Shown here in pieces: positions 12,496-35,856 of a DNA stretch of 36,779 nt. Below the pieces are notes generated by a model. The model was not told the DNA's origin. It worked only from the letters and a program-made list of their open reading frames with translations, and made no database searches. The DNA is from Bacillota bacterium (lineage in GTDB: Bacteria; Bacillota; Limnochordia; Limnochordales; DUMU01): assembly GCA_012839805.1 (NCBI GenBank), contig DUMU01000040.1:1-36779 (forward strand), read 5' to 3'. The position numbers were made by a program, and so were the translations under genes. The stretch's first letter is position 1; the number at the start of each line of letters is the position of its first letter.

Positions 12496-13500
<1,005 letters not shown>

Positions 13501-13549
13501 GCTCCGCACAGCCGGGGCGCGGGGCCATGACCGTGGATCGTACGACCAG

Positions 13550-13579
13550 TTGACCGCGGGGAGCTGGCTGTAGTAGGCT
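13550..13579 (+). promoter_or_regulatory. Candidate promoter of the fluoride riboswitch transcript
   Basis: TTGACC (13550-13555, 5/6 match) is followed after 18 bases by TAGGCT (13574-13579, 3/6 match). This would start transcription near 13586, shortly before the riboswitch aptamer at ~13600. The position is right but the -10 is weak. Confidence 0.4.
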
Positions 13580-13597
13580 AACGGCTAGAGTACAGGC

Positions 13598-13662
13598 CAG
13601 AGGGCGATGGAGCTCGCCCCAACTGCCGATAGCGCATAGCGTCGGATGATAGCTCCTACCGT
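13598..13662 (+). promoter_or_regulatory. Fluoride riboswitch (crcB motif) aptamer
   Basis: The sequence follows the crcB-motif architecture. A GGGCG/CGCCC stem (13602-13606 with 13615-13619) encloses the loop ATGGAGCT. A second hairpin follows, CCGAT (13626-13630) with GTCGG (13641-13645). The conserved GATGA then leads into AGCTCC TACC (13651-13660). The loop GGAGCT (13609-13614) is complementary to AGCTCC (13651-13656), giving the pseudoknot that encloses fluoride and Mg2+ in the known structure. It resembles the Thermotoga petrophila aptamer element by element. It lies upstream of a DUF6062-like gene and crcB, the classic regulon. Fluoride binding should stabilise the pseudoknot and allow read-through. 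Confidence 0.93.
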
Positions 13663-13727
13663 GTGGTTACCGGGGGTGCGTCGCCGGAGGCGGTTCACCC
13701 GGAATACCGTCGGTAGGAGCTTTTCTA
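13651..13727 (+). terminator. Riboswitch-controlled intrinsic terminator (expression platform)
   Basis: The 11-base arm AGCTCCTACCG (13651-13661) is perfectly complementary to CGGTAGGAGCT (13711-13721), which runs straight into TTTTCTATTT. Between them a further GC stem (ACCGGGGGTG near 13669 with CACCCGG near 13697, and GTCGCC/GGCGGT) extends the hairpin. The 5' arm is also the 3' strand of the aptamer pseudoknot, so ligand binding and terminator formation are mutually exclusive: fluoride ON, default OFF. Confidence 0.88.
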
Positions 13728-13742
13728 TTTGAGGTGAACGCC

Positions 13743-14498
13743 ATGGGTACTCAAAATACCCACCGCTCCCGTGCCGGTTCGGGCCTGGCCGCCATGCCGG
13801 TGCTCGAGGCATTCGAGGAGGCAGTTACGCCCGATTGCTGTCCCCTTTGCTCACTGGAGGCCCGGTCCGAGGAGGCTGCTGTCTGCCGCCTGCTCGGGGA
13901 AGACCTGATGGACCCGGGCTTTCGAAGCCGCCTCGCGAGGACCGGCCTTTGCCGGCATCACGTTCAGCGGTTGCTTGCCGGGCGGGACCGCCTGGGTACG
14001 GCACTGGTGCTGCTCGAACTGGTGCGGCACGGTCGCCGGCAGTTGTCCGGGGTGGCGGGGGAAGGCTCGGAAACCAGGACTGCCGGGTCGATCCCCGAAA
14101 CAGGCGTGTATCAGGACTGTCTCGTTTGTGCCGAGGTCCGGGAAGCCATGGCCCGCTATGCCCGGACGGTGGCCGCCCTCTATCGCGATGATGCCGCCTT
14201 CCGGCAGCGGCTCGCCGGGCACGATGGGATCTGCCTGCCGCATGCGGCCCTCCTGGTTCATCAGTCCTCTGCTGAACTGCCTCCCGCCCTGCGCCCCGCT
14301 TTCCGCCAGGCGGTGCTCAACCGGCTGGCCGGGGGGCTCGAGAGGCTGGAAGCGGAACTCGCCTGGTTTGTTCAGAAGTTCGACTACCGCTACCGGGAGG
14401 CGGATTGGAAAGGAACGCAAAACGCCCCGGATCGGGCCGCAGCTCGCCTGTGGGGGCGCAGCCCCGGGGTGCGGCAGCACCGGACCGCGGGACAGTAG
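13743..14498 (+). CDS. DUF6062-like Cys/His-rich protein under fluoride riboswitch control
   Basis: About 251 residues of unknown function. The start ATG (13743) is chosen because GAGGTG (13731-13736) lies six bases upstream; a GTG at 13734 would overlap that site. The protein contains two related halves. Each has a CxxC pair (CCPLC near residue 33; CLVC near 125) followed by a Gly-[Leu/Ile]-Cys-x-x-His motif (LCRHH near 71; ICLPH near 163). This suggests two CxxC...CxxH metal, probably zinc, sites in a mostly helical protein. There is no signal peptide or membrane helix, so it is probably cytoplasmic. It is the first gene after the riboswitch terminator and precedes crcB by 120 bases, so it should be induced by fluoride. 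I assign it to DUF6062 from memory of the motif pattern; the biochemical role is not known to me. Confidence 0.75.
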   Translation: MGTQNTHRSRAGSGLAAMPVLEAFEEAVTPDCCPLCSLEARSEEAAVCRLLGEDLMDPGFRSRLARTGLCRHHVQRLLAGRDRLGTALVLLELVRHGRRQLSGVAGEGSETRTAGSIPETGVYQDCLVCAEVREAMARYARTVAALYRDDAAFRQRLAGHDGICLPHAALLVHQSSAELPPALRPAFRQAVLNRLAGGLERLEAELAWFVQKFDYRYREADWKGTQNAPDRAAARLWGRSPGVRQHRTAGQ

Positions 14499-14501
14499 CG
14501 A

Positions 14502-14600
14502 GTGACCATCGATCATTGCTGGGTGACATCGATCATCGCTGGGGTCTTGAGGGTCTGAGGGTCTGCAGGCTGGCGGGTTGGCGGGTTGCAGGCTCGCAAG
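14502..14600 (+). repeat. Cluster of short tandem repeats between the DUF6062-like gene and crcB
   Basis: Two ~21-base near-identical units (14502-14522 and 14523-14542, built on GTGACATCGATCAT and GCTGG) are followed by three copies of a GGGTCTGA-like octamer and two of TGGCGGGT. Together they fill most of the 120-base spacer, leaving only the crcB ribosome-binding site. This looks like replication slippage, possibly altering spacing in the operon. Confidence 0.6.
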
Positions 14601-14618
14601 CGCAGAGGAGGAGTCTAG

Positions 14619-15242
14619 TTGCAACCCAGAACGATAGCTCTTTGGGCAGCGGTGGCCATAGCCGGCGCGCTGGGCGCACTCACCCGCTACGTGTTCTCCG
14701 CGTGGGTCGCCCGGCGATGGGGGAACTGCGCTTTCCCGTGGGGCACCTGGCTGGTCAACATCCTCGGGGCCTTTGTCCTGGGCTTTGCCTACGCATACAC
14801 CTCTGAACGCGAGCTGCCAGGTGTCTGGCAAACGGCGTTCACCAGTGGATTCATCGGGGCTTTTACCACGTTCTCGACGTTCAATTACGAAGCATGGGTC
14901 ATGCTCTCGGCCGCCAACTGGGGGCCCGGCCTCTTGTACCTCGCCAGCAGCTGGCTTCTGGGGCTGGCGGCAGTGGCGGCGGGCACGGCCACGGCCCGGG
15001 TCTTCGCCCGGGCGATCGCCGTGGCCGTCACCGCCGCCCTGGGCCTGGGTGTAGTCCGGGCCCTGGCCGGGCGGGCGCCGGACGGCACCCGCCCTCCGGC
15101 CGTGCCCCGCCCGCCGGCCGCATCTCCCGGGCCGGCCATCTCCCGCCCGCCAGCAATTCCCGATCCGCCGCCGCCGGCCGCCCCGGGGCGGCCGCCCGTA
15201 CCCCGGCGGCCACCGCAAACCCGGAGCGGGGTCACCCCATGA
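14619..15242 (+). CDS. crcB: Fluoride-specific ion channel CrcB/FluC with long proline-rich tail
   Basis: FluC channels are dual-topology homodimers in the inner membrane that export F-. Residues 1-~125 match the family: four hydrophobic helices, the GALTRY N-terminus, WLVNILGAFVLG, and the GFIGAFTTFSTF signature that contributes the Phe-box and polar-track residues. The start is TTG at 14619 with AGAGGAGG eight bases upstream; no better ATG precedes the conserved GALTRY. At 207 residues it is much longer than the usual ~125. The extra C-terminal ~65 residues are a Pro/Arg/Ala-rich tail with PPA and PPPP repeats and no conserved fold. The gene lies downstream of the fluoride riboswitch and is convergent with the UROD-like gene, whose stop is five bases away. 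Confidence 0.92.
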   Translation: MQPRTIALWAAVAIAGALGALTRYVFSAWVARRWGNCAFPWGTWLVNILGAFVLGFAYAYTSERELPGVWQTAFTSGFIGAFTTFSTFNYEAWVMLSAANWGPGLLYLASSWLLGLAAVAAGTATARVFARAIAVAVTAALGLGVVRALAGRAPDGTRPPAVPRPPAASPGPAISRPPAIPDPPPPAAPGRPPVPRRPPQTRSGVTP

Positions 15243-15247
15243 CCCCG

Positions 15248-22489
<7,242 letters not shown>

Positions 22490-22732
22490 CGACCTTTCAC
22501 TCCTCCGTTCGTTCGTTACTCCCGCCCCGCCCTCCAGCCGGGGGTAATGTTCTATCAACCTAACTTATCCGCGCTCTTCCCGTTCGCCGCGGGTGGCGCA
22601 GAATCCTGCCCGCTGCCGGCGCGTACCGCCGCCGCGCCCCTGCAGCCAGGTGGCCGGAGAAACCTCCGCCGGAGGATGTAGAGCGCGACCAGCCCGGCAA
22701 ACCCAGAAGATCACGAGTAAGGAGGAACAGGG

Positions 22733-22767
22733 AGCGGCTTGTCGAACACCAAGTTTGCCGCTTTTTT
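22733..22767 (+). terminator. Terminator-like hairpin with T6 upstream of the ABC exporter genes (possible attenuator)
   Basis: AGCGGC (22733-22738) pairs with GCCGCT (22757-22762), with a second small stem TTG/CAA inside, and is followed directly by six Ts. It lies in the 301-base divergent gap between the GH42 and ABC genes, only 24 bases before the ABC start. Terminating there would switch the exporter off, so it could be an attenuator. The rest of the gap (22490-22732) holds ribosome-binding-like AAGGAGG at 22719-22725 and no convincing promoter. Confidence 0.4.
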
Positions 22768-22810
22768 CCTGGTCCGGGAGGCTCTCGCCGATGAGAGGAA
22801 AGCACAATGA
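22739..22810 (+). CDS. Possible 23-residue leader peptide before the ABC exporter
   Basis: A short open frame starts with TTG at 22739, runs through the terminator-like hairpin and stops with TGA at 22808-22810, overlapping the exporter start by 20 bases. It would begin MSNTKFAAFFLVRE. AAGGAGG lies 13 bases upstream, which is longer than ideal; AGGGAG is nearer. Its overlap with the hairpin would allow translation-coupled control, or it could encode a small exported peptide. It may equally be chance. Confidence 0.15.
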   Translation: MSNTKFAAFFLVREALADERKAQ

Positions 22811-24590
22811 ATTTGGATTCGCTGCCGACCGCCTTTCAATATACGATTTTCTCGCTTATCACAAGCCTCTCTTTCTGCTTCTTGGCGTATGTGCGATAGC
22901 CTTTTCCCTAACGTTCCTGTATACTCAGCTCCTCTACTCCTCGTACATAGATCGCCTCAAGACCGGGGATTTCGTCGTTAACCTCATTATAGCCTATACC
23001 GCGGTCAACGTTTTCCAAGGCTTGGCATCTTACGTCCGGAACCGCTGGCGTGATACCTATATCAAACGGTTTATGGCACGCCTGCACGTCAGACTGTTCA
23101 GTAAGTTGCTCAATGCCAAGTATCAGGATCTCCAGTCACTGGGCAGCGGTACCATATACAATATTGTTGTTGACGATGCCGTCAGTGTGTACGACTTTCT
23201 GTTTTCAACGGTGATAACGACTATTTACTTGATGATCGATATTGCCATCGCGGCCACCGTACTTTTTCTGGCCGACTGGCGTTTTGCCGTACTGGCGCTG
23301 GTGAGTTTCCCACTCGTCATGACCGTATTGCCTAAGATTGCCGACGCCATCAGACGGCAAAATGAGCGATACCGCGTCGAGATGGACCAGTACAACAGTG
23401 CCATGCTCAATGCCCTGGAGGGGCTAGAAGATATCTATGCGTTAGGCATCGAGGAAGAAGTACAAAAAGACCTCGTGGACAGGATGCGAAGTATCGAGCG
23501 CCTGCGGATACGGATGCAAGTCATCTCCGAGCTGGCCAACCTGGTCAATAGCCTGCAGTATACCTGGCAGGCCATCGTGCAGTTCGGCTTGGGGGGGTAC
23601 CTGTTGGCCACCGGTTCCGCATCTATCGGGGGCGTCGTTCTTATCAGCACTTACCTGGAGCAGTACATCTCCTCGTTCAACCGGGCCGGTGCTACATACA
23701 AAGAATGGAAAACCATACAGGTTAGTATCGACAGGGTGAACCAGTTACTAAACGTCTTAAGGGAGCAACCGGTGCCGGAGGCCAGCGACCGGCCACCGCA
23801 GTTGCTCACGTCAAGCTCAATGGTACCGGCGATTACGCTGGAGGACGTGTACTTCTCATATGTGGAGGGCATGCCGGTTTTGGTTATTGACCACCTGGAA
23901 ATCCGTGCCGGCGAGAAGGTTGTAATCGTCGGACGCAACGGATCAGGCAAGAGCACACTGCTCAGGTGCATCGCCAACCTGTTGCCCGGGTATAGCGGGC
24001 GAATAGTTCTTATGGGCCTGGACGCTAAAGCCTGGCCGGGCAAATCAATTTACAGCATTCTCTCTTACCTGCCGCAGTTTGCCTATTTGCTGCCAGTGTC
24101 CATCCGCGACAATGTCTGGCTGGGGGCGCGGGATGACGTCAACGTTGGCCAGGATGACCTGTATGCCCGTGCTGTAGAGCGCTCCTGTTTGCGGAAAGTG
24201 CTGGATGAGGTACCAGGCGGCGACAGGTACATGCTCACGGAGAACGGGCAAAACCTTTCGGGAGGGCAGCGACAGTTGGTGGCGCTCGCACGCGCCTACA
24301 TGTCTCACACGCCGATTATGATCCTGGATGAATGCTTCTCCGCCGTTGACGCCCGGACCGAAGCAGAACTCATCGACAACATCATGCACGACGAAGGCAC
24401 CTATCTCATCGTATCGCATCGACTCCAGGTCTGTTCCCGAGCGGATCGTGTCCTGGTCATGGACCAGGGGCGGGTGATAGACGACGGCCCGCACGCGGAA
24501 CTCTTGCACAGGTGCGAGTTATACCGGCAACTTCTGCGGGAAGGAGAGAGCGGCGATGAAGGCGCTTGGGACCGCGCTGAAGCCGTTTAG
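22791..24590 (+). CDS. ABC exporter half-transporter (ABCB type), subunit 1
   Basis: About 599 residues: six-helix exporter domain (residues ~25-330) fused to a nucleotide-binding domain (~360-585). Walker A GRNGSGKST, signature LSGGQRQ, Walker B IMILDE with catalytic Glu, and switch His (IVSHRL) are all present, so the ATPase looks competent. The ATG at 22791 is preferred over an upstream frame extension because GGGAGG lies nine bases before it and the extra N-terminus would be low-complexity and unrelated. It overlaps the next ABC gene by 35 bases, so the two probably form a heterodimer. The substrate is unknown. The gene is visibly less GC-rich than its neighbours. A C-terminal acidic tail follows the last conserved strand. 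Confidence 0.9.
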   Translation: MRGKHNEFGFAADRLSIYDFLAYHKPLFLLLGVCAIAFSLTFLYTQLLYSSYIDRLKTGDFVVNLIIAYTAVNVFQGLASYVRNRWRDTYIKRFMARLHVRLFSKLLNAKYQDLQSLGSGTIYNIVVDDAVSVYDFLFSTVITTIYLMIDIAIAATVLFLADWRFAVLALVSFPLVMTVLPKIADAIRRQNERYRVEMDQYNSAMLNALEGLEDIYALGIEEEVQKDLVDRMRSIERLRIRMQVISELANLVNSLQYTWQAIVQFGLGGYLLATGSASIGGVVLISTYLEQYISSFNRAGATYKEWKTIQVSIDRVNQLLNVLREQPVPEASDRPPQLLTSSSMVPAITLEDVYFSYVEGMPVLVIDHLEIRAGEKVVIVGRNGSGKSTLLRCIANLLPGYSGRIVLMGLDAKAWPGKSIYSILSYLPQFAYLLPVSIRDNVWLGARDDVNVGQDDLYARAVERSCLRKVLDEVPGGDRYMLTENGQNLSGGQRQLVALARAYMSHTPIMILDECFSAVDARTEAELIDNIMHDEGTYLIVSHRLQVCSRADRVLVMDQGRVIDDGPHAELLHRCELYRQLLREGESGDEGAWDRAEAV

Positions 24591-26223
24591 CCAGGAGCTT
24601 GTGCTGCGTACCTTTCGCCAAATCCGCCCCAGCCCCTGGTTGTATACCCTCTTTATTTCGCTGGACGGCATCGTCAACGTCTGCAACAACGCTCTCTGGG
24701 CATACTTTTTCGTTCTCCTGGGAGATATCGCGACCGGTGGCGGATGGGAAGCTTACCGCCGGCTTTGGATCTATATCGCGCTTACCCTGCTTTTTTGGGC
24801 CCTTTACTTTATCAACGGTCTCACGAGCGAAGTGATGGCAATACGCACCGAATTCGCTATTAAGGGACGCATCTTGGATGGGGTGTTTCATACCGACTAC
24901 GCTGAAGTGTCCCGGCTGGGTTCAGGCGAAATCATCAACAGGTACAGTGACCTCGTAACCAATCTGACCGGTGTCTATCGTTCCTGGTTTCGGTGGAACG
25001 TGGTATCTCTCTGGCAGGTCATCGGAGCCTTTGTCTTTGGAGCTATCTTCGATTGGCGTATGACCATTGGCATCGTAGCCTTCGGACTTCTGACGATACT
25101 AGTTAACAAACTGTATCAAAAGACTTTCTACAAGCTTGCCAATGCGCTGCAAGCTGAGATAGGCAGAGTGAAGCAGTCGTACATCAGTTTTGTGCGCGGG
25201 ATCGAGACCCTAGTCACGTTACCAAGCGACCGCCTCGTAAAGCGGCTCTTTAACGAGACAATAGGCGGCCTTCTAGAAAAAGAGGTAAAGTTGGTGCGCG
25301 TCCGGCAAAATCTGCAACTGGCGCAGTTCCTGTTGTCGAATTTGTTTAGCATAGGGTTGTTGCTATTTGGTGGCTTGCTCATTGTGTCGGGCAGTATGAC
25401 GCTGGGGACACTGCTAGGTATCAAAATGCTGGCGCTTCTCATGTACAACGTCTTCAACCACTTTGGTTCTTTCTTCTCGTCATTCCAAACCTCCCAGAGT
25501 GCGATGGAGAAGGTTTATGAGTTGGTCGATATAGGCCGCCCGGCGGAGAGGCCCGCCGGTCAGTTGAGCCCATCCTCCGAGGAGAGGGACGCCATAAAGG
25601 TTGAGGACCTGTCCTTTGGGTATGATTCCGACCGGCCGATCATCCGCCACCTGAGCTTAAGTATACCTGCAGGACAGATCACAGCTATTATGGGGCCCAA
25701 CGGTTCCGGCAAGACTACGCTCATTCGGCTGCTCCTCGGCCTACTCACGCCGAACGAGGGAAGGATATATTACTACGGGCAGTGCTTGGACATGGCTATG
25801 GTACAGGAGTTCCGCAGAAAGAAGGTAGGATACGTGCCGCAAAGATTCTTCTTGTTCAATGGCACAGTTCGGCAAAACATTACGGGTTTTAGCCCTGTTG
25901 TAGATGAGGAGAGGCTACAGCGGGCCGTTAGGCTGGCGGGTGTGGATGTGGATTTAGATCTGGTGCTGAAGGATAATGGCAGGCAGCTTTCAGGGGGGCA
26001 GCGGCAACGGATTGCAATAGCACGGGCGCTGTATCGAGACGGGGAGTTGTTTATATTGGATGAACCTGCTTCGGCACTGGATACATTTGGAACGGATGCG
26101 CTAGCCAACATCATGCAGCGGTTAGTTCAAGAGGGCAAGACGGTGATCTTGGTATCCCACCGTGAGGAGTTGTTCAGGAACGTAGAGAACACCATACTGC
26201 TAGCACCGTATACGGCGCTCTAA
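24556..26223 (+). CDS. ABC exporter half-transporter (ABCB type), subunit 2
   Basis: 555 residues with an N-terminal six-helix membrane domain (~20-310) and C-terminal ATPase: Walker A GPNGSGKTT, Q-loop region GYVPQRFF, signature LSGGQRQRIAIARAL, Walker B LFILDEPASALD and His-loop ILVSHREEL. It starts inside the end of subunit 1, after AAGGAGAG. The pair is typical of heterodimeric exporters of lipids, drugs or peptides; no precursor-processing peptidase domain is fused to either. The G+C looks lower than the surrounding genes, suggesting acquisition. The neighbours downstream (HEPN and nucleotidyltransferase) are 205 bases away and may be independent. Confidence 0.9.
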   Translation: MKALGTALKPFSQELVLRTFRQIRPSPWLYTLFISLDGIVNVCNNALWAYFFVLLGDIATGGGWEAYRRLWIYIALTLLFWALYFINGLTSEVMAIRTEFAIKGRILDGVFHTDYAEVSRLGSGEIINRYSDLVTNLTGVYRSWFRWNVVSLWQVIGAFVFGAIFDWRMTIGIVAFGLLTILVNKLYQKTFYKLANALQAEIGRVKQSYISFVRGIETLVTLPSDRLVKRLFNETIGGLLEKEVKLVRVRQNLQLAQFLLSNLFSIGLLLFGGLLIVSGSMTLGTLLGIKMLALLMYNVFNHFGSFFSSFQTSQSAMEKVYELVDIGRPAERPAGQLSPSSEERDAIKVEDLSFGYDSDRPIIRHLSLSIPAGQITAIMGPNGSGKTTLIRLLLGLLTPNEGRIYYYGQCLDMAMVQEFRRKKVGYVPQRFFLFNGTVRQNITGFSPVVDEERLQRAVRLAGVDVDLDLVLKDNGRQLSGGQRQRIAIARALYRDGELFILDEPASALDTFGTDALANIMQRLVQEGKTVILVSHREELFRNVENTILLAPYTAL

Positions 26224-26428
26224 CATCTGTAGCGCAAAGGGTGGCTATCTATCCAAGAGCTATCTGGACAACCCGCCCCGCCCGCTCCCGGGCCGGCTGG
26301 TTCTCTGCTTTGACTCGAGGGATACCCGGAACGCCCGAGGAAGTGTAAGCTTAAGACGTGCATAAACCGCTCGCTTCGGCGACAGGCTGAAGTCGAAAGC
26401 AGGTCGGAACCGGGCGGGCGACAGAAGG
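26224..26428. other. Gap between ABC exporter and HEPN gene, nothing supported
   Basis: 205 bases with mixed GC-rich palindromic fragments (for example around 26275-26300) but no T-run, no convincing promoter and no coding frame with a ribosome-binding site. Whether the HEPN pair has its own promoter is not visible here. Confidence 0.5.
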
Positions 26429-26842
26429 GTGACCCAGGTGAACCGGGCAGATGACTGGCTGGCGCAAGCGGAACACGATCTGCAGCACGCCCGGCATGCG
26501 CAGGAAGACGGAGACTGGGAGTGGGCCTGTTTTGCCGGCCAGCAGGCGGCCGAGAAGGCGGTCAAAGCCCTGATCATGTACCAGGGCGGTGAGGGATGGG
26601 GGCATTCCATAACCCGGTTGCTGATGGATCTCAAGCATCTTCGTCCCGTCCCCGACGCCGTGCTCGATGCCGCGCGGCGATTGGACAGGCATTATATACC
26701 TGCCCGCTACCCCAACAGTTTCGATCGGGGGATACCGCGTGAGTACTACACGGCCGAGGACGCAAGGCAGGCGATCGCCGATGCAGAGACCGTTTGTCTC
26801 TTTGTCCGTAACTCGATTCGTGAACCGGGAGAGGGTAATTGA
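26429..26842 (+). CDS. HEPN domain protein
   Basis: 137 residues. It shows the HEPN helical pattern of the nucleotidyltransferase-associated class: DDWLAQAEHDLQHAR at the start, the WACFAGQQAAEKAVKAL helix, then RHYIPARYPNSFDRG and YYTAEDARQAI. It starts GTG at 26429 (or 26438) after AAGGGTGA. A R-x4-H arrangement (in ARRLDRHY) resembles the RNase motif of HepT-type toxins, but its position and conservation are uncertain. The gene overlaps the nucleotidyltransferase by 62 bases if the latter starts at 26781. The pair may be a HepT/MntA-like toxin-antitoxin or a simple two-subunit nucleotidyltransferase. Cytoplasmic. Confidence 0.85.
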   Translation: MTQVNRADDWLAQAEHDLQHARHAQEDGDWEWACFAGQQAAEKAVKALIMYQGGEGWGHSITRLLMDLKHLRPVPDAVLDAARRLDRHYIPARYPNSFDRGIPREYYTAEDARQAIADAETVCLFVRNSIREPGEGN

Positions 26843-27149
26843 GCTCCTGCGCCAGTGTGCGCGGCAACTCGTGGCCAGCATTCCCGACACCAGGGTTTAC
26901 CTTTTCGGATCGTACGCCACCGGCCGGCCCACCCCTCGCAGCGACGCCGACGTGGCGGTGGTCATCCGCGGACCTCTACCCTCCTCGCCCGCCTACCCTG
27001 CCGAGGTAGAACGCCTGGCCCGTGACATCTTCCTGCAAGCTCCCGTACCGGTCGACCTCTTCGTGTTCACCGAAGCAGAGTTTCGCGAAGGCGCACAGAC
27101 TGGAAAAGGAGTGGCCGGAGTCGCCGCGCGCCACGGAATCCCACTCTGA
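26781..27149 (+). CDS. Minimal nucleotidyltransferase (MNT/MntA-like) domain protein
   Basis: About 122 residues. The polymerase-beta type site is intact: GS at FGSYATG, DAD ten residues after it (the GS-x10-DxD motif), and a third carboxylate in VDLFVF. The family transfers nucleotides; the MntA antitoxin adds AMP to tyrosine on its HEPN partner. ATG at 26781 keeps the family-like TRFVNRERVIELLRQ N-terminus. A GTG at 26820 is the alternative; both lie inside the HEPN gene, so translation is coupled. The ribosome-binding site for either is weak. Confidence 0.85.
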   Translation: MQRPFVSLSVTRFVNRERVIELLRQCARQLVASIPDTRVYLFGSYATGRPTPRSDADVAVVIRGPLPSSPAYPAEVERLARDIFLQAPVPVDLFVFTEAEFREGAQTGKGVAGVAARHGIPL

Positions 27150-27263
27150 AGCCGTCAGCTCGATCCGTCCGTCGCTCATTCACCGGGAGAGCCCGGGTCT
27201 GGTAGCCAGACGAGAGAGGTCTCGCGCCCGGGCCCGCCCCGGCACTACCTGCTTCTTCGTTTG

Positions 27264-27914
27264 TCACTCCAAAGCCCGTGCAAGGGCCACGAGTTGTTCG
27301 GCGGTCACCGACTCATCAGCCGCCCAAATCCCAATCGCGATGGTGCCAGTTGACATTCTCAGGATCCACCGCCGCAGGCTGATGAGCAGTGCCGGCCTCC
27401 CGCCGACTATCGTAGCCACGCACTCTATGGTCCGTAGCTTCCGCGGTACATAGTCTGACTCAATCCATTCTTTAGGAACCCTGATTGCCCACAATCCCGG
27501 AGTCCACGGCTCTCCCTCGAAGAAAGTCTCGCTAAGCTCAAGGATCCCAGGTATGTAGAGCACCGCTCCCTTTCCTTCTTGCACCTCCACGGTTAGGGTT
27601 GATGGGTCAACACCGGGAAAGATCGAGATGACAGCTTCCGGCGCTGGAAGGAGAAACTTGTCGCCGTAGCGTTCAATAGCTTGTACGAGGGGCAACTTTA
27701 CGGTAGTAACCGGTGTGGGCGCGTTGCACGGGCAGTAGTAGCACGACCACGGCTCGACGTCGGGTTCGCTGCCCCAGTAGATATGGAACTCAAAGCTAGG
27801 GCCTAGCGACGGGTGACCGCATTGTGGGGGCTGCGCTGCCACTACGCCCGTGGATAAAGCACTTACGATGAACCCCATCAGAGCCAGAACGCGCCAGCTC
27901 ATACAAAACCTCAC
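27264..27914 (-). CDS. Secreted protein of unknown function (last gene of FtsX-like cassette)
   Basis: 216 residues from GTG at 27914, set by AAGGAGGT seven bases upstream. The N-terminus is a signal peptide (MSWRVLALMGFIVSALSTG, cleavage near VVAAQ). The mature N-terminal part has a CGHP and a CYYCPC cluster, four or five cysteines that could bind metal or form disulfides outside the cytoplasm. The rest is a soluble alpha/beta region with no motif I recognise (SIFPGVDPSTLTVEV, LWAIRVPKEW). It ends the minus-strand run 27264-34559, 82 bases after the Cys-rich gene stop. It is convergent with the nucleotidyltransferase gene; no clear terminator was seen between them. Confidence 0.75.
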   Translation of the reverse strand: MRFCMSWRVLALMGFIVSALSTGVVAAQPPQCGHPSLGPSFEFHIYWGSEPDVEPWSCYYCPCNAPTPVTTVKLPLVQAIERYGDKFLLPAPEAVISIFPGVDPSTLTVEVQEGKGAVLYIPGILELSETFFEGEPWTPGLWAIRVPKEWIESDYVPRKLRTIECVATIVGGRPALLISLRRWILRMSTGTIAIGIWAADESVTAEQLVALARALE

Positions 27915-27996
27915 TTCTTACACCTCCTTCAGCCTGTTATCATAAGTCGGTAAGCTCCCTCGCTAAGCTCCCTCTCGTATTGCTGCCTCTGATCCT

Positions 27997-28512
27997 TCAG
28001 TATGGGGGAGGAGGTGGTGGAGGACATTGCCACGGAGGAAGCGGCTCCTGTTTACGGCAGTCCTGACATATCCGTATGCACCGCAGAAGATCGGACACCC
28101 AAGTATGGAGGAACCCTTCGAGAATGCAATGCTTCTGGTAGCCGCAGTAGCAGTAGCATTCGCAAATGGCGAGGTGAGATTCGTCATCTCGTGGATCGGG
28201 GACATAGCCAAGTATTCGACGCATGTACTCGGGAAACGAATGAGGCGACCAAGGATCGTATATGTAAAACCGTCCACACTGAGAACAATCCCAGACGTGC
28301 ACGTATCGGTGCCCGGTTTCATCGTATTCGAAGTGGGAGTAAGCGTCGTTGTAGTAGGCGTCTGGGGCCCCGCACTGAGGACACGGTCCGAACCAATCAG
28401 GATGTACACTGGCCGCTCCAGCAGCGTAATGCAACTGAAAAGCCAATAGAACACTCAGGATAGTACTGGCCAAAAACATACACGGCCTGCGTGTTGTCCG
28501 CCCCTCTCGCAT
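27997..28512 (-). CDS. Secreted cysteine-rich zinc-ribbon-like protein with polyproline tail
   Basis: 171 residues from ATG 28512, after an AGGAGG-containing site. An open extension to 28635 has no signal-peptide logic and is rejected. A signal peptide is evident (CMFLASTILSVLLAF, cleavage near AAGAA). The mature protein has CPQCG, CSQCGRFY about 40 residues later, then CECYCYCGYQKHC, CIRICQDC and a final Cys before PPPPPPY. The two CxxCG pairs form a zinc-ribbon-type quartet; the later cluster could hold another metal or disulfides. It is rare for such motifs to be extracytoplasmic. It lies between the FtsX-like permease 28744-30132 and the other secreted protein, 231 bases after the permease. 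Function unknown. Confidence 0.7.
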   Translation of the reverse strand: MREGRTTRRPCMFLASTILSVLLAFQLHYAAGAASVHPDWFGPCPQCGAPDAYYNDAYSHFEYDETGHRYVHVWDCSQCGRFYIYDPWSPHSFPEYMRRILGYVPDPRDDESHLAICECYCYCGYQKHCILEGFLHTWVSDLLRCIRICQDCRKQEPLPPWQCPPPPPPPY

Positions 28513-28644
28513 GACCTCTTCGCCTCCTCCTGCTGCCGTGGTGTTGTCCAAACCGACCTTCTCGTACCACCTGTTCGGTAACCACGCAGCGTCAACGTAC
28601 GAAATCGCCCGGGGTTGCTTCAAGTCCGGTAACAACTAACAACG

Positions 28645-28724
28645 GGAATCCTGCGCCCAAGAAAGAGCGCCCGTCGTCGATAGCGTCGCTACGCTTGCCC
28701 GGAGAACCGATCGCTCAGGATTCC
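28645..28724. repeat. Perfect 9-base inverted repeat between permease and Cys-rich gene
   Basis: GGAATCCTG (28645-28653) and CAGGATTCC (28716-28724) are exact complements 62 bases apart, in the 231-base gap before the Cys-rich gene. They could close a structured RNA leader or be a protein-binding site; the apical sequence shows no recognised riboswitch. Confidence 0.35.
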
Positions 28725-28743
28725 GCGCCGAACAGGTCGCCCG

Positions 28744-30132
28744 CTAAGGGCTTTCGGACAGGGCAAGACCGGGGGGGAGGCGGCTTGCCTCATACGTCGC
28801 AGCCAGGGCGATTGCCCAAACGAGCAGCAGCACCCCGCCGGCGGCGGCAACGGCGGCGGTCAGCATTGTTCCCAAGCTGGCCGGTGGTACCACCGGGATG
28901 TCCCCTATCACTAGTGTTAGGATGCTCGGGCGCACCAGGTGGTTCAAGATGAACCATGCCACGGGAATGACCACGATAAAGGCGGGTAAACAAAGCAAGG
29001 TCACCTCGATCGCCGTGCCTAACACGAGCCGGCCTCGCCTCATGCCGAGGCACCGTCGTAGCCCGAATTCCCAGATCCGCCTGGTCAAAACCGACCATAC
29101 GACGGCGAACTGGCTGGCCAGTGCGACGACCATCGAAAGAAGAATTTGCAGGCGGGCCTGAGCCGCGTTCCGTCTGAGCACCTCGAGGGCTCGTGCGCGA
29201 ATAGGCTCTTTTTCGACGCTAAATGATGCCGCTCGCGCAAATCCTGACCGGGTAGGGGGTCCATTCAGCAGGACCTCTAGATCACGGATGGCTTCATCGG
29301 TACGGCTCGCAGCCGGCTTAGCGATTCCGGCAGGTACCACCCGGCGCGTCGCCGGTGATCCCGATGCTGTCGACGTTCCGGTGGCGAACAGGGCTGCCGG
29401 GGCAACACTGGACGGCAACAGCATCATCGGTACGGCTCCCGCCCAGGCCAGTTCGGGCGAGGCATCAAAGACACCGATGACCGTATAGACCTGGCTTGAC
29501 GCTACACCAGCCGGCGCTTCCGCTTTCTCTTCGGTGGTCTTCCGTTGTCTTTCGGTTTCGCCGGCGGCCGGGTCGGTCTCCGGGTACACGCGGACCGAAG
29601 GAGCAGGGCCATCACTCAACAGGAACTGGCGGCCCACCCAGGCGGCAGGGCTATTTTCCCCGCCAAACAAGGCGGCCGCCACTCGGGTGGAGAGAAGCGC
29701 GACTTTTGCCTGGTTACGCCAATCCACCTCGCTCATGGGTTGCCCGGCGACCATCTCCAGCTGGGCGATCTCAACGGCCTCCGGGTATACCCAGTAGGAT
29801 GTGATCCGCCAGGCACTCTCGGTACTCACCGGTTTGCCTTCGGGCGAAAGCGGGATGGCGTACTGGACCGAGGCGACCCACGGGGAGATACGACGCAGGT
29901 TCGGACTTTGACCGACCAAAGAGCGGAGTGTGGCATCATCCAGACCGGCCCCCTGCGCTCGCCAGTAGAATACGACCGGTATATCCCGGTCCAGCACCTT
30001 TTCGATGCGGGAGACTTCCAGATGGGTATACAGGCCGAGGGTCACGACCACCGCCGCCAGTACCGTGGTGACCAGGAGTAGAACGCTCGCCAGGGGCTGC
30101 CGGCGAGCAAAAAGGATGGTGTCCCGAAACAA
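28744..30132 (-). CDS. MacB/FtsX-type permease (single unit)
   Basis: 462 residues, starting TTG at 30132 after GAGGAGG. The topology is typical MacB/LolCE: one N-terminal helix (~15-38), a large extracytoplasmic MacB core domain (~40-310) and three C-terminal helices (~325-450). The FtsX-type cytoplasmic segment RRCLGMRRGRL follows helix two, where the family contacts its ATPase. The core domain resembles those of the two upstream paralogues (e.g. RRISPWVAS versus VSPWIPT). It starts 12 bases after the 986-residue permease stops, so they are co-transcribed and probably form one complex. No ATPase gene adjoins. In diderms such permeases move lipoproteins or drugs or act by mechanotransmission; the role here is inferred only at fold level. 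Confidence 0.85.
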   Translation of the reverse strand: MFRDTILFARRQPLASVLLLVTTVLAAVVVTLGLYTHLEVSRIEKVLDRDIPVVFYWRAQGAGLDDATLRSLVGQSPNLRRISPWVASVQYAIPLSPEGKPVSTESAWRITSYWVYPEAVEIAQLEMVAGQPMSEVDWRNQAKVALLSTRVAAALFGGENSPAAWVGRQFLLSDGPAPSVRVYPETDPAAGETERQRKTTEEKAEAPAGVASSQVYTVIGVFDASPELAWAGAVPMMLLPSSVAPAALFATGTSTASGSPATRRVVPAGIAKPAASRTDEAIRDLEVLLNGPPTRSGFARAASFSVEKEPIRARALEVLRRNAAQARLQILLSMVVALASQFAVVWSVLTRRIWEFGLRRCLGMRRGRLVLGTAIEVTLLCLPAFIVVIPVAWFILNHLVRPSILTLVIGDIPVVPPASLGTMLTAAVAAAGGVLLLVWAIALAATYEASRLPPGLALSESP

Positions 30133-30144
30133 CCTGGCCCCTCC

Positions 30145-33105
30145 TCAACGTTCAAACAGGAGCACCCTGGGGTCAGAACGAACCGCCAGCCACGCGGGGA
30201 CGATCCCTGCCATCACCTCGGCCGCCAGCGTTCCGGCCACGCCAGCCAGAATGGCCGAAAGGCCGGGTAGTTGAACTTCGTTCACATTCAGGCCCACCCA
30301 GCGGAAAAGCGCCGGAGCAAGAACCCAGGTAGCGATGGCCGCGGGTGCAGCACCGGCAGCACCGATAGTCAGCAACTCGACCATGATGTCCCTGGCAATC
30401 TCCGTTCTTGATGCACCGAGTGCTCTGGCCAGCGCGATCTGGCCGAGGCGCCGGGACGTATGCAAGAGATACACCCCGAGCGTGGCCAGGCTAGCAAGGG
30501 CAAGGGTAAAGGCTACGAGGAGAAGAGCGCGCTGCCGGAGTGCACGCCATGGCATGGACCGCCGGTTCAAATCGTCGACCGTAGCGACCACCTCAAACCT
30601 TCCCTCGCCCCATTCACGATCCACGAGCCTGCCGAGATAATGCGAAAGGCCAGTAAGGTCCACGCCGGGGCGCGCGATCACGGTAACACTTGGCACTTCG
30701 TCCCAATCGTAGAGTGGGAGTAACAAAACCACACCGGGTCGCTCATGACCCTGCGAGCCGGCCGGGAACATCCCGGGCAGCTTGAGGTAGGAAGAAGGAG
30801 TGACGACGCCTACGATGCGATACCAACCCACGTGTTCGCCCGGCTGAACTGGCAGCTTAGAGATCACTTCCTTGTCCTCGGTTGAAAGCGAATACGGCAA
30901 GGAGGCAGATCCGTTTCCTAAACGTCCCCGGATCAAGATCTGGTCGCCCAGCTCAAGGGCGGGCCGGCTGCCGGACCCGCCCCTCACAAGCAGGGCAGCC
31001 CCCGTGCCGCCGACCGGTACCCACTCGTTAATGGTCGAAAAATACATCCAGCCGGGCGACAAGGCCGGTATTTTTCGCAGGTCTTCTTCTAACCATTTCG
31101 CACCGGCCTCGAAGACGGCTCCCCGTGATTTTGCGCTGTCGAACCACGAAGGGGTCACCCGAATAACCGTTGCCTTTACCGGTTCAACCTCCGCCCGCTC
31201 CCCATCGGGGGTCGAAGTGCCCTCAGAACCAGTGACACCCCCCTTGGCTGGCCGAAGGTGACCGCTGGCGTCGCGTATGGCCAGGATCGCGGCTTCCGGT
31301 ACGACCGTCTCGGCTACGGCTGCCTCGACGCCCTCGACTTCTTCAAGCAAGCGGAGGTCACGAACAGAAATCGGTCGGACACTTTCATCCGTGATACGCA
31401 CGCGGACGGGCGAAATGTACGAACTCCAACCCAGGAGCCGAGGTCGAATAGTAATGGTACGCTGCTCAACCGGTGAAAGGTGGGTTAACGCCGTCGAGTA
31501 GGGGTCTTTCCCCCGTACGACCGGCCAGGACAAGGTGAGCGCTGCCCCCCCGATGCCTGCTGCCAGCAGCATAACCGCGGTATCAAGCGGCAAGAAGGTT
31601 ACCCGGCGCCAGATCCAACGCCAACGTGAGAATTTGCCCGGGAGGTCTATAATGTATGGGCGTGTGGAAGGCTCCACCCTTCGCCGCTTACGCTCCTCTT
31701 TCGAGCTGCGGAGGTAACGGATGTAAGAGATAGCGGCCGGGATAGCCACGACCAGAACCACCAGGCCGACGGTCACGAGGAAGAGCCGGCTCAGCGGAAG
31801 AAGGCGGGCTAAGGCATCGGCGGACTGTGTAACAACCTTCTTGAACTCACTTGAGTGTTCAGGAAGCACATATGCTTGCGGGCTCAAGAAGATCGAACGG
31901 ACGGCCACCAGAAGGGCCGCGACAACAACGGCACCAATTAGTCCGGGCACCCAGTCCCACAGGCTCTCGAAGATTCCCAACTGCTGACGCAGCCGGTAGT
32001 TCAAGCGACGCAAGGTTCCCCAAAAAGCATATCCGGCTACAAACGGGAGAACCAACACCAAGACAAGCACGAGCACGACACCGGCGACCGGGTCAAGGTT
32101 CCTGGTCCAGGCAAGCCACCCCTCCTGGTTGTAGCTCTCTTCGGCGGGGCTGCTCGCTTGGTCGAGGTTGCCGGCACCGGGTTGGTCGCGACCCCCATCG
32201 GTCCCTTGGTCTGGAAGGCTGACCCCTGAAGGGGTCCAGAGTTGTCCTAAGACCGCCTCGAGCTGACCGTGCTCAACCGTGATTAGATAAGATCGAAAAC
32301 CCGGCGAGATGGAGGCAGTAAGTAGAGTGTAAGGTACGACGAGTTGAGGGAGCACGTCGGCCTCTCCAGCTGGAAGTGCTTCTGGTGCTAGCATCTGGCC
32401 CGCCTCGCTCAAGAAGGCTAGAAGGGATGGGAGGTTGTCGTTGTCGTCTATCGCGCGAACAACGCCCCCTCTCTCTTCAGGCGATGCGAAGATCCCGACC
32501 ACTTCCAGGTCGATCCACGGTCCGCTTTCTCCAAACGATACGGACACGGTGCGGCCGATCATCTGTTGCTCTTTGCCGGAGGATAGACCGTTCCGGCGCG
32601 CGAACGAGGCCGACGCCAGGGCCACCCTGGCGCCCCCGGTCACTTCCCGCTCGAAGAAATAGCGTCCGCTAACCACCTGCCCGGGCAGCCCCGCCGAATC
32701 GGTGCCGAGGCCGAGGAACCATGCTTGGCGAGGGCCGGAGGAAAGCGCGAGGGTGGCGGAGGTTTTAACCCACCCCGGGAATGGAATCCAGGGTTTCACA
32801 GATATGACTCCGGGGAGGGTGGCCCACCAATTGGCGACCGGCGCGTCCTCGCCGAAGAGCAACACGTTTACCAGGTTGGCCCTTTCGTCATACAGCGCAA
32901 TGAGATGCCGGTCTAGATCCTCGATCACCCGTTTCCCAATGGTAAAGTCGCTGGAACTGGATGTCGGGGTCGGGAGACCGGCCACCAAGGGGGCCGCTAA
33001 GGCGGAGTCCGGGCCAAGCAGGGGAATACTGGCTGCACAGGATGAAAGCCACAGACCGGGTAGGAAGCCGAGACTTACTGCAACGGCCCGGACCGGACGA
33101 AGCAT
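30145..33105 (-). CDS. Double FtsX/MacB-type permease (fused two-unit)
   Basis: 986 residues from ATG 33105, fixed by AGGAGG nine bases upstream; a longer frame to 33159 lacks support. Unit one: N-terminal hydrophobic segment with a lipobox-like LSSC near residue 22, MacB-type core (~35-330), then three helices (~345-480) including a Val/Leu-repeat helix (VLVLVLVLVLP). Unit two: a new helix near 525, second core domain (~550-810) and three FtsX helices (~830-970) with LARALGASRTEI in the cytoplasmic loop. So one chain provides two permease units, as in the BceB/FtsX duplications. It lies between a stand-alone core-domain protein and a single-unit permease. The absence of an ATPase gene is notable. 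Substrate unknown. Confidence 0.85.
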   Translation of the reverse strand: MLRPVRAVAVSLGFLPGLWLSSCAASIPLLGPDSALAAPLVAGLPTPTSSSSDFTIGKRVIEDLDRHLIALYDERANLVNVLLFGEDAPVANWWATLPGVISVKPWIPFPGWVKTSATLALSSGPRQAWFLGLGTDSAGLPGQVVSGRYFFEREVTGGARVALASASFARRNGLSSGKEQQMIGRTVSVSFGESGPWIDLEVVGIFASPEERGGVVRAIDDNDNLPSLLAFLSEAGQMLAPEALPAGEADVLPQLVVPYTLLTASISPGFRSYLITVEHGQLEAVLGQLWTPSGVSLPDQGTDGGRDQPGAGNLDQASSPAEESYNQEGWLAWTRNLDPVAGVVLVLVLVLVLPFVAGYAFWGTLRRLNYRLRQQLGIFESLWDWVPGLIGAVVVAALLVAVRSIFLSPQAYVLPEHSSEFKKVVTQSADALARLLPLSRLFLVTVGLVVLVVAIPAAISYIRYLRSSKEERKRRRVEPSTRPYIIDLPGKFSRWRWIWRRVTFLPLDTAVMLLAAGIGGAALTLSWPVVRGKDPYSTALTHLSPVEQRTITIRPRLLGWSSYISPVRVRITDESVRPISVRDLRLLEEVEGVEAAVAETVVPEAAILAIRDASGHLRPAKGGVTGSEGTSTPDGERAEVEPVKATVIRVTPSWFDSAKSRGAVFEAGAKWLEEDLRKIPALSPGWMYFSTINEWVPVGGTGAALLVRGGSGSRPALELGDQILIRGRLGNGSASLPYSLSTEDKEVISKLPVQPGEHVGWYRIVGVVTPSSYLKLPGMFPAGSQGHERPGVVLLLPLYDWDEVPSVTVIARPGVDLTGLSHYLGRLVDREWGEGRFEVVATVDDLNRRSMPWRALRQRALLLVAFTLALASLATLGVYLLHTSRRLGQIALARALGASRTEIARDIMVELLTIGAAGAAPAAIATWVLAPALFRWVGLNVNEVQLPGLSAILAGVAGTLAAEVMAGIVPAWLAVRSDPRVLLFER

Positions 33106-33182
33106 AGCACCTGCCCTCCTTTTCTGACGCAGCCCACGGACGACCACCGGGCAAAGCATGGGCGTGGCGACACGGCCGGCCT

Positions 33183-33989
33183 CTAGCCGGCTTGAGGCGT
33201 GAGCAAACCCCCGAAGAAGGCTTGTCGTAGAAACTCAGCCGTACGGGCGGCTTCGCCAGGTTTGGTCACGACAACATGCCCCTGGCTGTGGCGTTGCTCT
33301 TTGGCGGACGGAACAAGGCTGTATGGGATGAGGAGGTCCTCTTCCTTAACACCCATGAACAGCTCTACACTCTTGGGAAACTCGCCGATGGCCGGTCCAC
33401 CTGATTGAACTAACGGGCCGGTCTCGTACTGGTAGACGCCGACTACTTTGATCTCGAGCCGGGTCGCTCCGCCGTCAAACGATACGAGGAGGCTTTTGCC
33501 CAGCACCTGCATGGGGTCCGTGAATCCCGCTCTGAGCATCAATCGCCTGGAGATCACGCCTATCTTGGCCTGGCCCGTGAGATCCGCAGGGATGAAGAAA
33601 CGGCCCGACAACAGCCGAACGGGAGTCTTAGGGGGTTCACCGTCTTTTCTTTTACCGATCGGGTACCCCGTGCCAACACCGCATGCCCAAGCATCTGTCA
33701 AGCCGGCAGGCATCACGATCTGGATGGGGGTCGGGATCCAAGGGGAGACGGACTTAACTGCCGGAAGCTGCGAAAGCAGACCGGTCAGCCGGGGTTCGGC
33801 CCAAGACGCCAATACTAAGACGTAATTGTAACTTTCGTTTATCTCCAGTGATAGGGCGAAATCGCCGCGACCCAAGTGCCAGGCGATTGTTCCGTCACCG
33901 GCCAAAACCGTCGCATGGGCTGTGATGATCTCCAGCGCTATCGCGACGATTACCGGACCTGCTGCGACCTGAACCCTTCGACGGCTCAC
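33183..33989 (-). CDS. Stand-alone MacB-type extracytoplasmic core-domain protein
   Basis: 268 residues. GTG at 33989 is fixed by AAGGAGGT eight bases upstream. An N-terminal hydrophobic segment (~8-28) may be a signal peptide or anchor. The remainder parallels the first core domain of the following double permease: PAVKSVSPWIPTP matches PGVISVKPWIPFP, VRLLSGRFF matches QVVSGRYFF, and VSFDGGATRLEIKVVGVY matches VSFGESGPWIDLEVVGIF. The three C-terminal FtsX helices are missing, so it cannot be a permease alone. It may be a truncated paralogue or a dedicated partner. The reading frame is clean, its ribosome-binding site is strong and the gap to the next gene is 77 bases, so it looks functional. 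Confidence 0.75.
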   Translation of the reverse strand: MSRRRVQVAAGPVIVAIALEIITAHATVLAGDGTIAWHLGRGDFALSLEINESYNYVLVLASWAEPRLTGLLSQLPAVKSVSPWIPTPIQIVMPAGLTDAWACGVGTGYPIGKRKDGEPPKTPVRLLSGRFFIPADLTGQAKIGVISRRLMLRAGFTDPMQVLGKSLLVSFDGGATRLEIKVVGVYQYETGPLVQSGGPAIGEFPKSVELFMGVKEEDLLIPYSLVPSAKEQRHSQGHVVVTKPGEAARTAEFLRQAFFGGLLTPQAG

Positions 33990-34076
33990 AGCAGGCGACC
34001 TCCTTTGCGTAACGGGATCCGGGTAGAGCGTGGGCCCGGGTCTCCACTATTCACTCAATTCTGCTTTGGGTACTTA

Positions 34077-34559
34077 CTAGAGCTGGAACTCGTGTATGTC
34101 CCACCACGCACTCCAGTCTCCGGCCACCCTGTCAAGCACGATGTAACCGTATTCGCCCGGATACGGGACCCCGTACTCATTGTGGTCACCATGCCAATTG
34201 TTTGAGTACATGGGGATCTGTGCTCCGTAAGAACCAGACAAGCCCCATCCGGGTTGGACCGGATAGTCCCTCTCAAAATGCTTGCCGATTATTAGCGCGA
34301 ACGACGGATTGACACCTGCTATCGCCTGGGCTTCGTAATCAGAATGGTTTGACGTGTTACGCAGCTCGTAAGATAACCGTGAAGGATCCTGGGTGACAGT
34401 ACGAATTACCTGCGTAGTTCCTCTGTTCTCGTAATAGTAGTAATTCCACGTTCCGTCTGTCCACCACCACTCTTCATAGAAGTGGTGGCCCAACACCGTC
34501 GGCTGGAGCAAGAGAAGGCATAGCGCCAGGATCGACCCAGCTATCCTGCGATTGGTCAT
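34077..34559 (-). CDS. Secreted aromatic-rich protein of unknown function, first in the FtsX-like cassette
   Basis: 160 residues with a clear signal peptide (RRIAGSILALCLLLLQPTVLG, cleaved before HHFYEEWWW). The mature ~137 residues are very rich in Trp, Tyr and His: EEWWWTDGTWNYYYYENRG at the start, WHGDHNEYG and WSAWWDIHEF at the end, with no cysteine. This composition suggests an extracellular beta-structured domain or ligand-binding/antimicrobial protein. No known family is recognised; the lactococcin-972 type was considered but does not fit. The ATG (34559) follows GAGAGG. The gene lies directly behind a near-consensus promoter, so it is likely the most strongly expressed member of the run. 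Confidence 0.7.
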   Translation of the reverse strand: MTNRRIAGSILALCLLLLQPTVLGHHFYEEWWWTDGTWNYYYYENRGTTQVIRTVTQDPSRLSYELRNTSNHSDYEAQAIAGVNPSFALIIGKHFERDYPVQPGWGLSGSYGAQIPMYSNNWHGDHNEYGVPYPGEYGYIVLDRVAGDWSAWWDIHEFQL

Positions 34560-34603
34560 GACCCTCTCATCCTCTCCTTCGACTCCGGGCCCACGCCACT
34601 TTC

Positions 34604-34632
34604 ATCGTACTAGGCCGGTGGAGAACTGTCAA
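34604..34632 (-). promoter_or_regulatory. Near-consensus sigma-A promoter of the FtsX-like cassette
   Basis: On the minus strand a perfect TTGACA (-35, 34627-34632) is followed after exactly 17 bases by TACGAT (-10, 34604-34609). Predicted start near 34597 leaves a leader of about 38 bases before the ATG at 34559. It faces away from the CDF gene. Confidence 0.72.
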
Positions 34633-34764
34633 CCCAAAATTTGCCTGCATTGTATCTGCAGCCAGCCTCCCAGCACGGCGCCGGGCAAGCAGACCCCCCG
34701 GAAGAATGGTAAACTAGACGCTGAGGCCCCGGACAAGCTGACAACGAAGGGTAGCGATAACCGG

Positions 34765-35856
34765 ATGAGAAGTACCACCACCGAAGAGCAGCCGAAAGCT
34801 AACGGTTCTCCAATGCGAGCGGCAAAAACAGGCGATGGCAGGCTGCCGGGCCAAGATCCGGGCCCGGGTCAGACTGTCCCCCCCGTAGCTCACACATCTT
34901 CTGCGCTCTCAGCAGGCAACCCCGAGCGCACCCCTGGCTCCGAACGGGCGACCCCCCGCGGGCTTACCGTGGCCGGCGTCGTTCTGGCCGCGACCCTTCT
35001 TCTGCTAAAAAGCCTGGCTACCGTCCTCACCGGTAGCATCTCGATCCTCTCCGACGCGCTCAACTCGTTCCTCGACCTGTTTTCGTACAGCGCCATACAC
35101 CTGGCCGTGCGTATGCAAAACGTCGCTCCGGACGTCGACCACCCCTTTGGCCACCGCCGCGCCGAACCCCTGGCCGGGTTGATCATTGCCATTCTCGCCG
35201 CGGTCCTGGGGTTCAATATCCTGAGGGAAGCCATCACCTCGCTCGCCACCGACCATGCGGTTGTCCTGGCTCCAGCCGCGCTGGTCGTGATGACCATCGC
35301 CGTCGGAAGCAAGGTCGTCATGGCCATTCTCTACCGCACCGCTTCCCGTCGTACGGGGAGTCCGGCCATGGAGGCAAGCTATGTCGATACTCGTAACGAC
35401 ATCCTGGCCTCTTCCATCGCCTTCGTCGGGTTCTTCCTGGGCGGGCACTGGGACAGCGTCGCAGCCTTGTTGGTCGGGGTCTGGGTCATATACTCCGGCA
35501 CGCGTGTAGGTCTCGAGAATATCCACTACCTTATGGGCCGGGCACCCGCAGCCGAAGTGCAGGAGGAGATAAGAAGCGCCGCTTTACGCGTACCCGGGGT
35601 TAAGGACGTGCCTTTTCTGCGGGCCCATTTCGTAGGCGACCGGGTAGACGCCGAACTTCACGTCACCGTGGATGAGGACATGCCCCTCCGGGAGGCTCAC
35701 GCCATCAGCGAAACCGTAAAGCGGGAAGTAGAACGGATACCCGACCTGCAATACGCTTTCGTCCACATCGAACCGGTGCCGTCAAATTCAAACGAACGGG
35801 CCCGGGAAGGAGCGCCGGTCCCGCAGCCAGGCGCCGGAAAATCAACCCGCCGGTAG
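34765..35856 (+). CDS. Cation diffusion facilitator, manganese-type metal site
   Basis: About 363 residues: six helices (from ~residue 65 to ~265) and a C-terminal ferredoxin-like cytoplasmic domain (~280-350, VDAELHVTVDEDMPLREAHAI). CDF proteins expel divalent metals by proton antiport. The TM2 motif is NSFLD (Asn-x3-Asp) and the TM5 motif is DTRND (Asp-x3-Asp). Zinc exporters of the YiiP or CzcD type instead have Asp or His at the first position of TM2 and His in TM5; the Asn/Asp/Asp/Asp set is the one reported for manganese exporters. The N-terminus is long, hydrophilic and low-complexity. ATG 34765 is a compromise, as no start has a good ribosome-binding site and ATG 34813 is possible. 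It is divergent from the FtsX-like cassette and convergent with flgJ, with no gap. Confidence 0.9.
   Translation: MRSTTTEEQPKANGSPMRAAKTGDGRLPGQDPGPGQTVPPVAHTSSALSAGNPERTPGSERATPRGLTVAGVVLAATLLLLKSLATVLTGSISILSDALNSFLDLFSYSAIHLAVRMQNVAPDVDHPFGHRRAEPLAGLIIAILAAVLGFNILREAITSLATDHAVVLAPAALVVMTIAVGSKVVMAILYRTASRRTGSPAMEASYVDTRNDILASSIAFVGFFLGGHWDSVAALLVGVWVIYSGTRVGLENIHYLMGRAPAAEVQEEIRSAALRVPGVKDVPFLRAHFVGDRVDAELHVTVDEDMPLREAHAISETVKREVERIPDLQYAFVHIEPVPSNSNERAREGAPVPQPGAGKSTRR

Follow-up and report, generated by a model that had tools for sequence, protein, structure and literature searches.

A double and a single MacB/FtsX-type permease encoded without a dedicated ATPase on a variable segment of a Limnochordales genome

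We found that a six-gene cassette in the window (the whole stretch of 36,779 nucleotides that was analyzed) has as its core a double and a single permease of the MacB/FtsX superfamily, encoded without a dedicated ATPase alongside, and that a pair of the same kind recurs elsewhere in the same genome. The accepted view of MacB/FtsX permeases is that their movement depends on a dedicated ATPase. We tentatively interpret the core of the cassette as an orphan type VII (MacB/FtsX-superfamily) permease complex, in which the double and the single permease would work with variable exported partners and ATP, if any, would be supplied in trans.

The six minus-strand genes of the preliminary description were borne out by the ORF listing as intact open frames at 34559-27264, with ribosome sites upstream of most of them. 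The features are as follows.

34604-34632, minus strand: promoter-like site TTGACA-17-TACGAT (10/12 consensus match)
34077-34559, minus strand: aromatic-rich exported protein, 160 aa (ORF; hydrophobic N-terminal stretch)
33183-33989, minus strand: exported MacB-type periplasmic core domain, 268 aa, without the transmembrane permease part (PF12704)
30145-33159, minus strand: double FtsX/MacB permease, 1004 aa, or 986 aa from ATG 33105 (Pfam)
28744-30132, minus strand: single FtsX/MacB permease, 462 aa (Pfam; coupling signature RRIWEFGLRRCLGMRRGRL)
27997-28512, minus strand: Cys-rich exported protein (CPQCG...CSQCG), 171 aa (ORF, which itself opens at 28635)
27264-27914, minus strand: exported protein, 216 aa (ORF; hydrophobic N-terminal stretch)

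In cassette order, the genes are separated by 87, 23, 12, 231, and 82 bp, and the core domain, double permease, and single permease genes form the most tightly packed part. Because the 231-bp interval parts the single permease gene from the Cys-rich gene, one transcript spanning all six genes is possible at most. The near-consensus promoter from which the run had been proposed to be expressed does exist as a site at 34632-34604 matching the consensus at 10 of 12 positions, but the region has no surplus of such sites, with 5 found versus 3.9 expected from shuffled sequence.

Domain searches agreed with the earlier assignment of a core-domain-only protein, a double permease, and a single permease. 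The 268-aa protein matched Pfam MacB_PCD (PF12704) alone, at 27.1 bits versus a cut-off of 27; its sole hydrophobic stretch is N-terminal, and it is 28% identical to the N-terminal periplasmic domain of the double permease (E=3e-13). Both the 1004-aa and the 462-aa proteins carried FtsX and MacB_PCD matches. For the double permease, ATG 33105, with AAGGAGG upstream, is the better start.

No gene for a LolD/MacB-type ATPase was present in the cassette or beside it within the window, and the six-gene run itself contained no hidden ATPase of the MacB type. The claim that the window lacks an ATPase holds for the LolD/MacB type, but it does not hold in general, since the two ABC exporters encoded at 22593-26223 each combine a membrane domain with an ATPase domain whose motifs are intact. 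Type IV exporters carry their own membrane domains, which makes these two poor ATPase donors. Among the stand-alone ABC ATPases elsewhere in the genome, only three belong to the LolD/MacB type (54-57% identity to the one on contig 2, versus <44% for the remaining stand-alone ATPases). Each of the three lies beside its own FtsX gene: the one on contig 2 is accompanied by MacB, adaptor, and TolC-like genes, the one on contig 46 belongs to a MacAB set with a TolC-like gene, and the one on contig 23, at 180.9 kb, belongs to an FtsX and ABC-2-like set. A free LolD/MacB-type ATPase was sought among the stand-alone ATPases fetched from the genome, and none was found; this census covers a draft assembly of 51 contigs that is 96.4% complete, from which a further ATPase may be missing. 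Since each candidate has its own permease, an ATPase acting in trans would have to be shared. Contig 2 (G000:C2, L018 8612-10159) also ends inside a MacB-like permease, beside a complete MacB-type gene set.

On contig 23 of the same genome we detected a further pair (L017 6650-11163), made up of a 999-aa double and a 505-aa single permease, with no ATPase gene near. The order of double followed by single is the same in both cassettes, with a 12-bp gap in the window and a 4-bp overlap on contig 23, and identity between the cassettes is 29% for the doubles and 30% for the singles. This second, distantly related pair marks the pair as a real unit, and the conserved core is the double and the single permease only. 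The window run had been described as a dedicated cassette whose genes should co-occur elsewhere. This was true of the double and the single permease, which recur in the same genome. The full set of six, however, is not conserved, and the homologues do not co-occur: the partner on contig 23 is a 480-aa solute-binding-type protein (PF01547), whose gene precedes the pair, and the aromatic-rich and 216-aa proteins are orphans without relatives. We therefore rejected a conserved six-gene device, and no result spoke directly for the role in surface assembly, secretion, or immunity that had been suggested for it. A third, lone duplicated FtsX/MacB permease of 958 aa is encoded on contig 21 (G000:C21, L019 5149-8025), again with no ATPase gene near; its neighbors are a 6-phosphogluconate-dehydrogenase-like gene on one side and a murB-like gene on the other.

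Profile searches with both pairs in a sample of 398 genomes of the phylum, at E 1e-20 and 1e-12, returned nothing outside this genome, and in closer relatives a profile search returned only ordinary FtsX domains, matching the permease C-terminus. A GTDB peptide-pattern search with the double permease, which detects close relatives only, found no relatives.

The ATPase contact of MacB is its major coupling helix, which lies between TM2 and TM3 (PMC5985334). A coupling signature of the kind R..EIG.R.ALGA is present in the window single permease (RRIWEFGLRRCLGMRRGRL), in the C-terminal half of the window double (RRLGQIALARALGASRTEI), and in the contig-23 single (RVRELGLRRSLGAGRAML), and it is only partly kept in the C-terminal half of the contig-23 double; C-terminal halves and singles read R..E.GLRR.LG or a near variant. 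The N-terminal half of either double has no recognizable coupling signature, no Pfam FtsX match, and no match to an FtsX model built from nine relatives. With that model the window single itself scored poorly, at 2.9 bits versus 42.7 bits with Pfam FtsX. Because this derived state is common to two doubles that are only 29% identical, it suggests an old arrangement rather than recent damage. The window double has 7-8 predicted helices, and both doubles open with a weak hydrophobic segment that is signal-peptide-like rather than a strong TM1. Read from ATG 33105, the window double closes this first segment with LSSC, which might be a lipobox although not a standard one; PVPGC occupies the corresponding position in the contig-23 double.

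In the complex that we tentatively propose, two FtsX modules would be competent for coupling, as in a normal type VII transporter: the single permease and the double's C-terminal half. The double's N-terminal half, like the free 268-aa core domain, would be an extra periplasmic module that has lost its drive. A coupling signature in just two of three modules fits drive by a pair of ATPases, as the corresponding helix of MacB is the ATPase contact (PMC5985334). A LolD/MacB-type ATPase from another locus would supply the energy, the candidates being those on contigs 2, 23, and 46, and the resulting movement would be exerted, in the periplasm, on the exported proteins encoded with the permeases. 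Complex formation, an ATPase in trans, and the exported proteins as clients are what we infer. That three ATPases of the LolD/MacB type exist in the genome counts in favor of a complex energized in trans, as do the recurrence of the tightly packed pair and the derived state common to both doubles; against it count that none of the three is free, that the signature of the contig-23 double is partial, that the window single reached only 2.9 bits with the relatives' model, and that the exported proteins differ between the cassettes.

The same anatomy can be read without ATP. The permeases would then be anchored in the membrane and act in the periplasm as scaffolds or sensors for the exported proteins, and the ATPase would have been lost as unneeded, which agrees with the lack of an ATPase beside any of the three duplicated permeases (window, contig 23, and contig 21), with the retention of the periplasmic part in the N-terminal halves and the free 268-aa domain where the driven part is gone, and with the word "orphan" in the full name of the named family ADOP (TIGR03434). 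However, a coupling signature that is still recognizable in singles and C-terminal halves at ∼30% identity is unexpected if an ATPase never binds, and we place this explanation on the unlikely side.

The cassette lies on a segment that is missing from the nearest relatives compared, a sister species of the same genus (G001) and a member of the same family (G002). Besides the cassette, the segment contains the following features.

22400-34900, no strand: insertion of about 12.3 kb relative to G001 and G002, ends approximate (DNA comparison, G+C)
22593-24590, plus strand: ABC exporter (membrane domain and ATPase), 665 aa (intact ATPase motifs)
24556-26223, plus strand: ABC exporter (membrane domain and ATPase), 555 aa, overlapping the preceding exporter gene (intact ATPase motifs)
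26429-27149, plus strand: HEPN (137 aa) and nucleotidyltransferase (MNT) pair, toxin-antitoxin-like (PF05168, PF01909)

The genes bordering the insertion, a glycoside hydrolase gene (20.15-22.39 kb) and a cation diffusion facilitator gene (from 34.96 kb), are adjacent in the relatives, where they lie ∼310 bp (G001) and ∼0.6 kb (G002) apart. The G+C content of the insertion is 58.5%, compared to 63.8% and 64.8% outside, and its third-position G+C is lower too. The ∼12.3 kb would be either an insertion in the window or a loss in both relatives, and gain appears to be the simpler reading, since the segment is missing from both relatives and differs in composition. No direct repeats of >10 bp were found between the ends of the island. 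A phage or plasmid origin of the cassette was considered and rejected, as searches of viral contigs and plasmids, which detect close relatives only, found none. The contig-23 set is likewise missing from G001, with 179 bp between the flanking matches versus 6.8 kb here; its G+C content of 65.6% is normal, so composition does not argue for recent transfer, and the set was either gained here or lost in the sister species. Another stretch of the window, 13500-20050, is also absent from G001, where the flanking matches are only ∼0.1 kb apart, and from G002 as far as covered; it encodes a LacZ-type beta-galactosidase (16288-19947), a URO-D-like protein (15248-16330), and a 492-aa frame without assignment.

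The two exporters might be linked to the cassette; the HEPN-MNT pair sits between them, and a peptide-pattern search across GTDB with the neighboring exporter returned only generic ABC exporters (26-31%). The insertion as a whole might serve peptide or small-protein export and self-protection, the exporters exporting, the exported proteins being the product or its carriers, and the permeases protecting the producer. All the genes lie on one insertion of similarly low G+C, an HEPN-MNT pair is also present, and MacB-type permeases take part in bacteriocin export or protection elsewhere (AS-48H and YknXYZ; PMC5985334). Yet the exporters are on the opposite strand, and the contig-23 pair has no exporters. 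Moreover, none of the six cassette proteins had an NCBIfam match to bacteriocin families, including the lactococcin-972 type, or to bacteriocin-associated membrane proteins; PADLOC models gave nothing for the six except a 10.6-bit chance match, and for the exporters generic ATPase matches only. With no family match and no convincing precursor-like small ORF in the gaps, we rejected a bacteriocin or defense system, and we consider an export and self-protection island decidedly unlikely.

As claimed for the three secreted proteins, the 160-aa, 171-aa, and 216-aa products each have a single N-terminal hydrophobic stretch, consistent with export. No relatives of the aromatic-rich 160-aa protein were found in 151 genomes, viral contigs, plasmids, or the PDB, and genome searches found none for the 216-aa protein; a 31-residue match (E=0.009) in one genome, obtained with these orphan exported proteins, was taken as chance. 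Their predicted structures are poor models (pLDDT 41 for the aromatic-rich and 43 for the 216-aa protein). The Cys-rich gene probably starts at ATG 28512, upstream of which lies the site GGAGGAGG, and not at 28635. The sole relative of its product is a frameshifted remnant in the sister species (G001:C12:106142-106292; L084 7142-7292). It lies 40 kb away from the empty insertion site, with tRNA-Pro(ggg) ∼115 bp upstream of it. The 3' side of tRNA genes is a usual place for mobile DNA, and since the remnant sits there, the Cys-rich gene family has probably moved and decayed within the genus.

This broken relative, together with the absence of the distinctly composed cassette from both nearest relatives and the failure to find a conserved copy elsewhere, would also suit a cassette in decay, left over from an acquired ABC system that lost its ATPase gene, and having no present function. 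Against such decay stand the six frames, which are all intact and mostly preceded by ribosome sites, and the very diverged second pair, whose architecture is the same and which also lacks an ATPase, something that recent loss does not explain. We regard decay as unlikely.

Permeases that lack an ATPase but keep the contact for one in two of three modules would make both the role of orphan permeases and the sharing of MacB-type ATPases between systems directly testable. Under the orphan-complex interpretation, the cassette would encode an envelope machine that some close relatives possess and others lack, within a lineage of Firmicutes that probably has two membranes; cultured Limnochordales have an outer membrane (PMC11456536). 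Whether it stands for a new class seems doubtful to us; in such a class, a half-inactivated double and a single permease, accompanied by free core domains and by exported partners that can be swapped, would borrow the ATPases of resident MacB/Lol-type systems while the cassette comes and goes between genomes.

Among known systems, the duplicated MacB/FtsX permease is shared with ADOP (Acidobacterial duplicated orphan permease), the best NCBIfam match (TIGR03434) of both the double (49.8 bits, E=1.5e-13) and the single (22.4 bits). The score of the double is far under the family cut-off of 622.3 bits, so that it is not filed as a member. Where ADOP has two FtsX/core-domain modules in one chain, the window double shows a topology of two modules, but Pfam FtsX is found in its C-terminal half only, its N-terminal half having neither a recognizable FtsX domain nor the signature. 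In addition, the double here always adjoins a single permease and, in the window, also a free core domain. ADOP genes are not known to have neighboring ATPases; likewise, no LolD/MacB-type ATPase is fused or adjacent in the window or on contig 23. The ATPases that lie closest belong to exporters, which bring membrane domains of their own. The literature searched for the phrase "duplicated orphan permease" held no explanation of its function.

The nearest characterized architecture is YbbP of the E. coli YbbAP-TesA system, in which an old duplication has placed two MacB-like periplasmic domains in one chain, each with transmembrane helices behind it, along with two coupling helices, ten transmembrane helices, and an ATPase of its own, YbbA (PMC12646458). 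The window double similarly has duplicated periplasmic and transmembrane modules in one chain, but it has a single coupling signature, in the C-terminal half, and 7-8 predicted helices, and no gene for a YbbA-like partner ATPase lies near the window permeases. With MacB of MacAB-TolC the window permeases share MacB_PCD and FtsX, and the C-terminal part gave a profile match to solved MacB chains (E=1e-7); they differ in having no N-terminal ATPase domain and no adjacent ATPase, MacA, or TolC-like gene, whereas the true MacB systems of this genome are on contigs 2 and 46. LolCDE and LolDF belong to the same permease superfamily, with a weak profile match to LolF (E=0.003), but no LolD is adjacent here and no recognized lipoprotein carrier is encoded in the insertion. 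Compared with these systems, the cassette is a variation on the orphan duplicated MacB/FtsX permease, here joined by a single permease and, in the window, by a free core domain.
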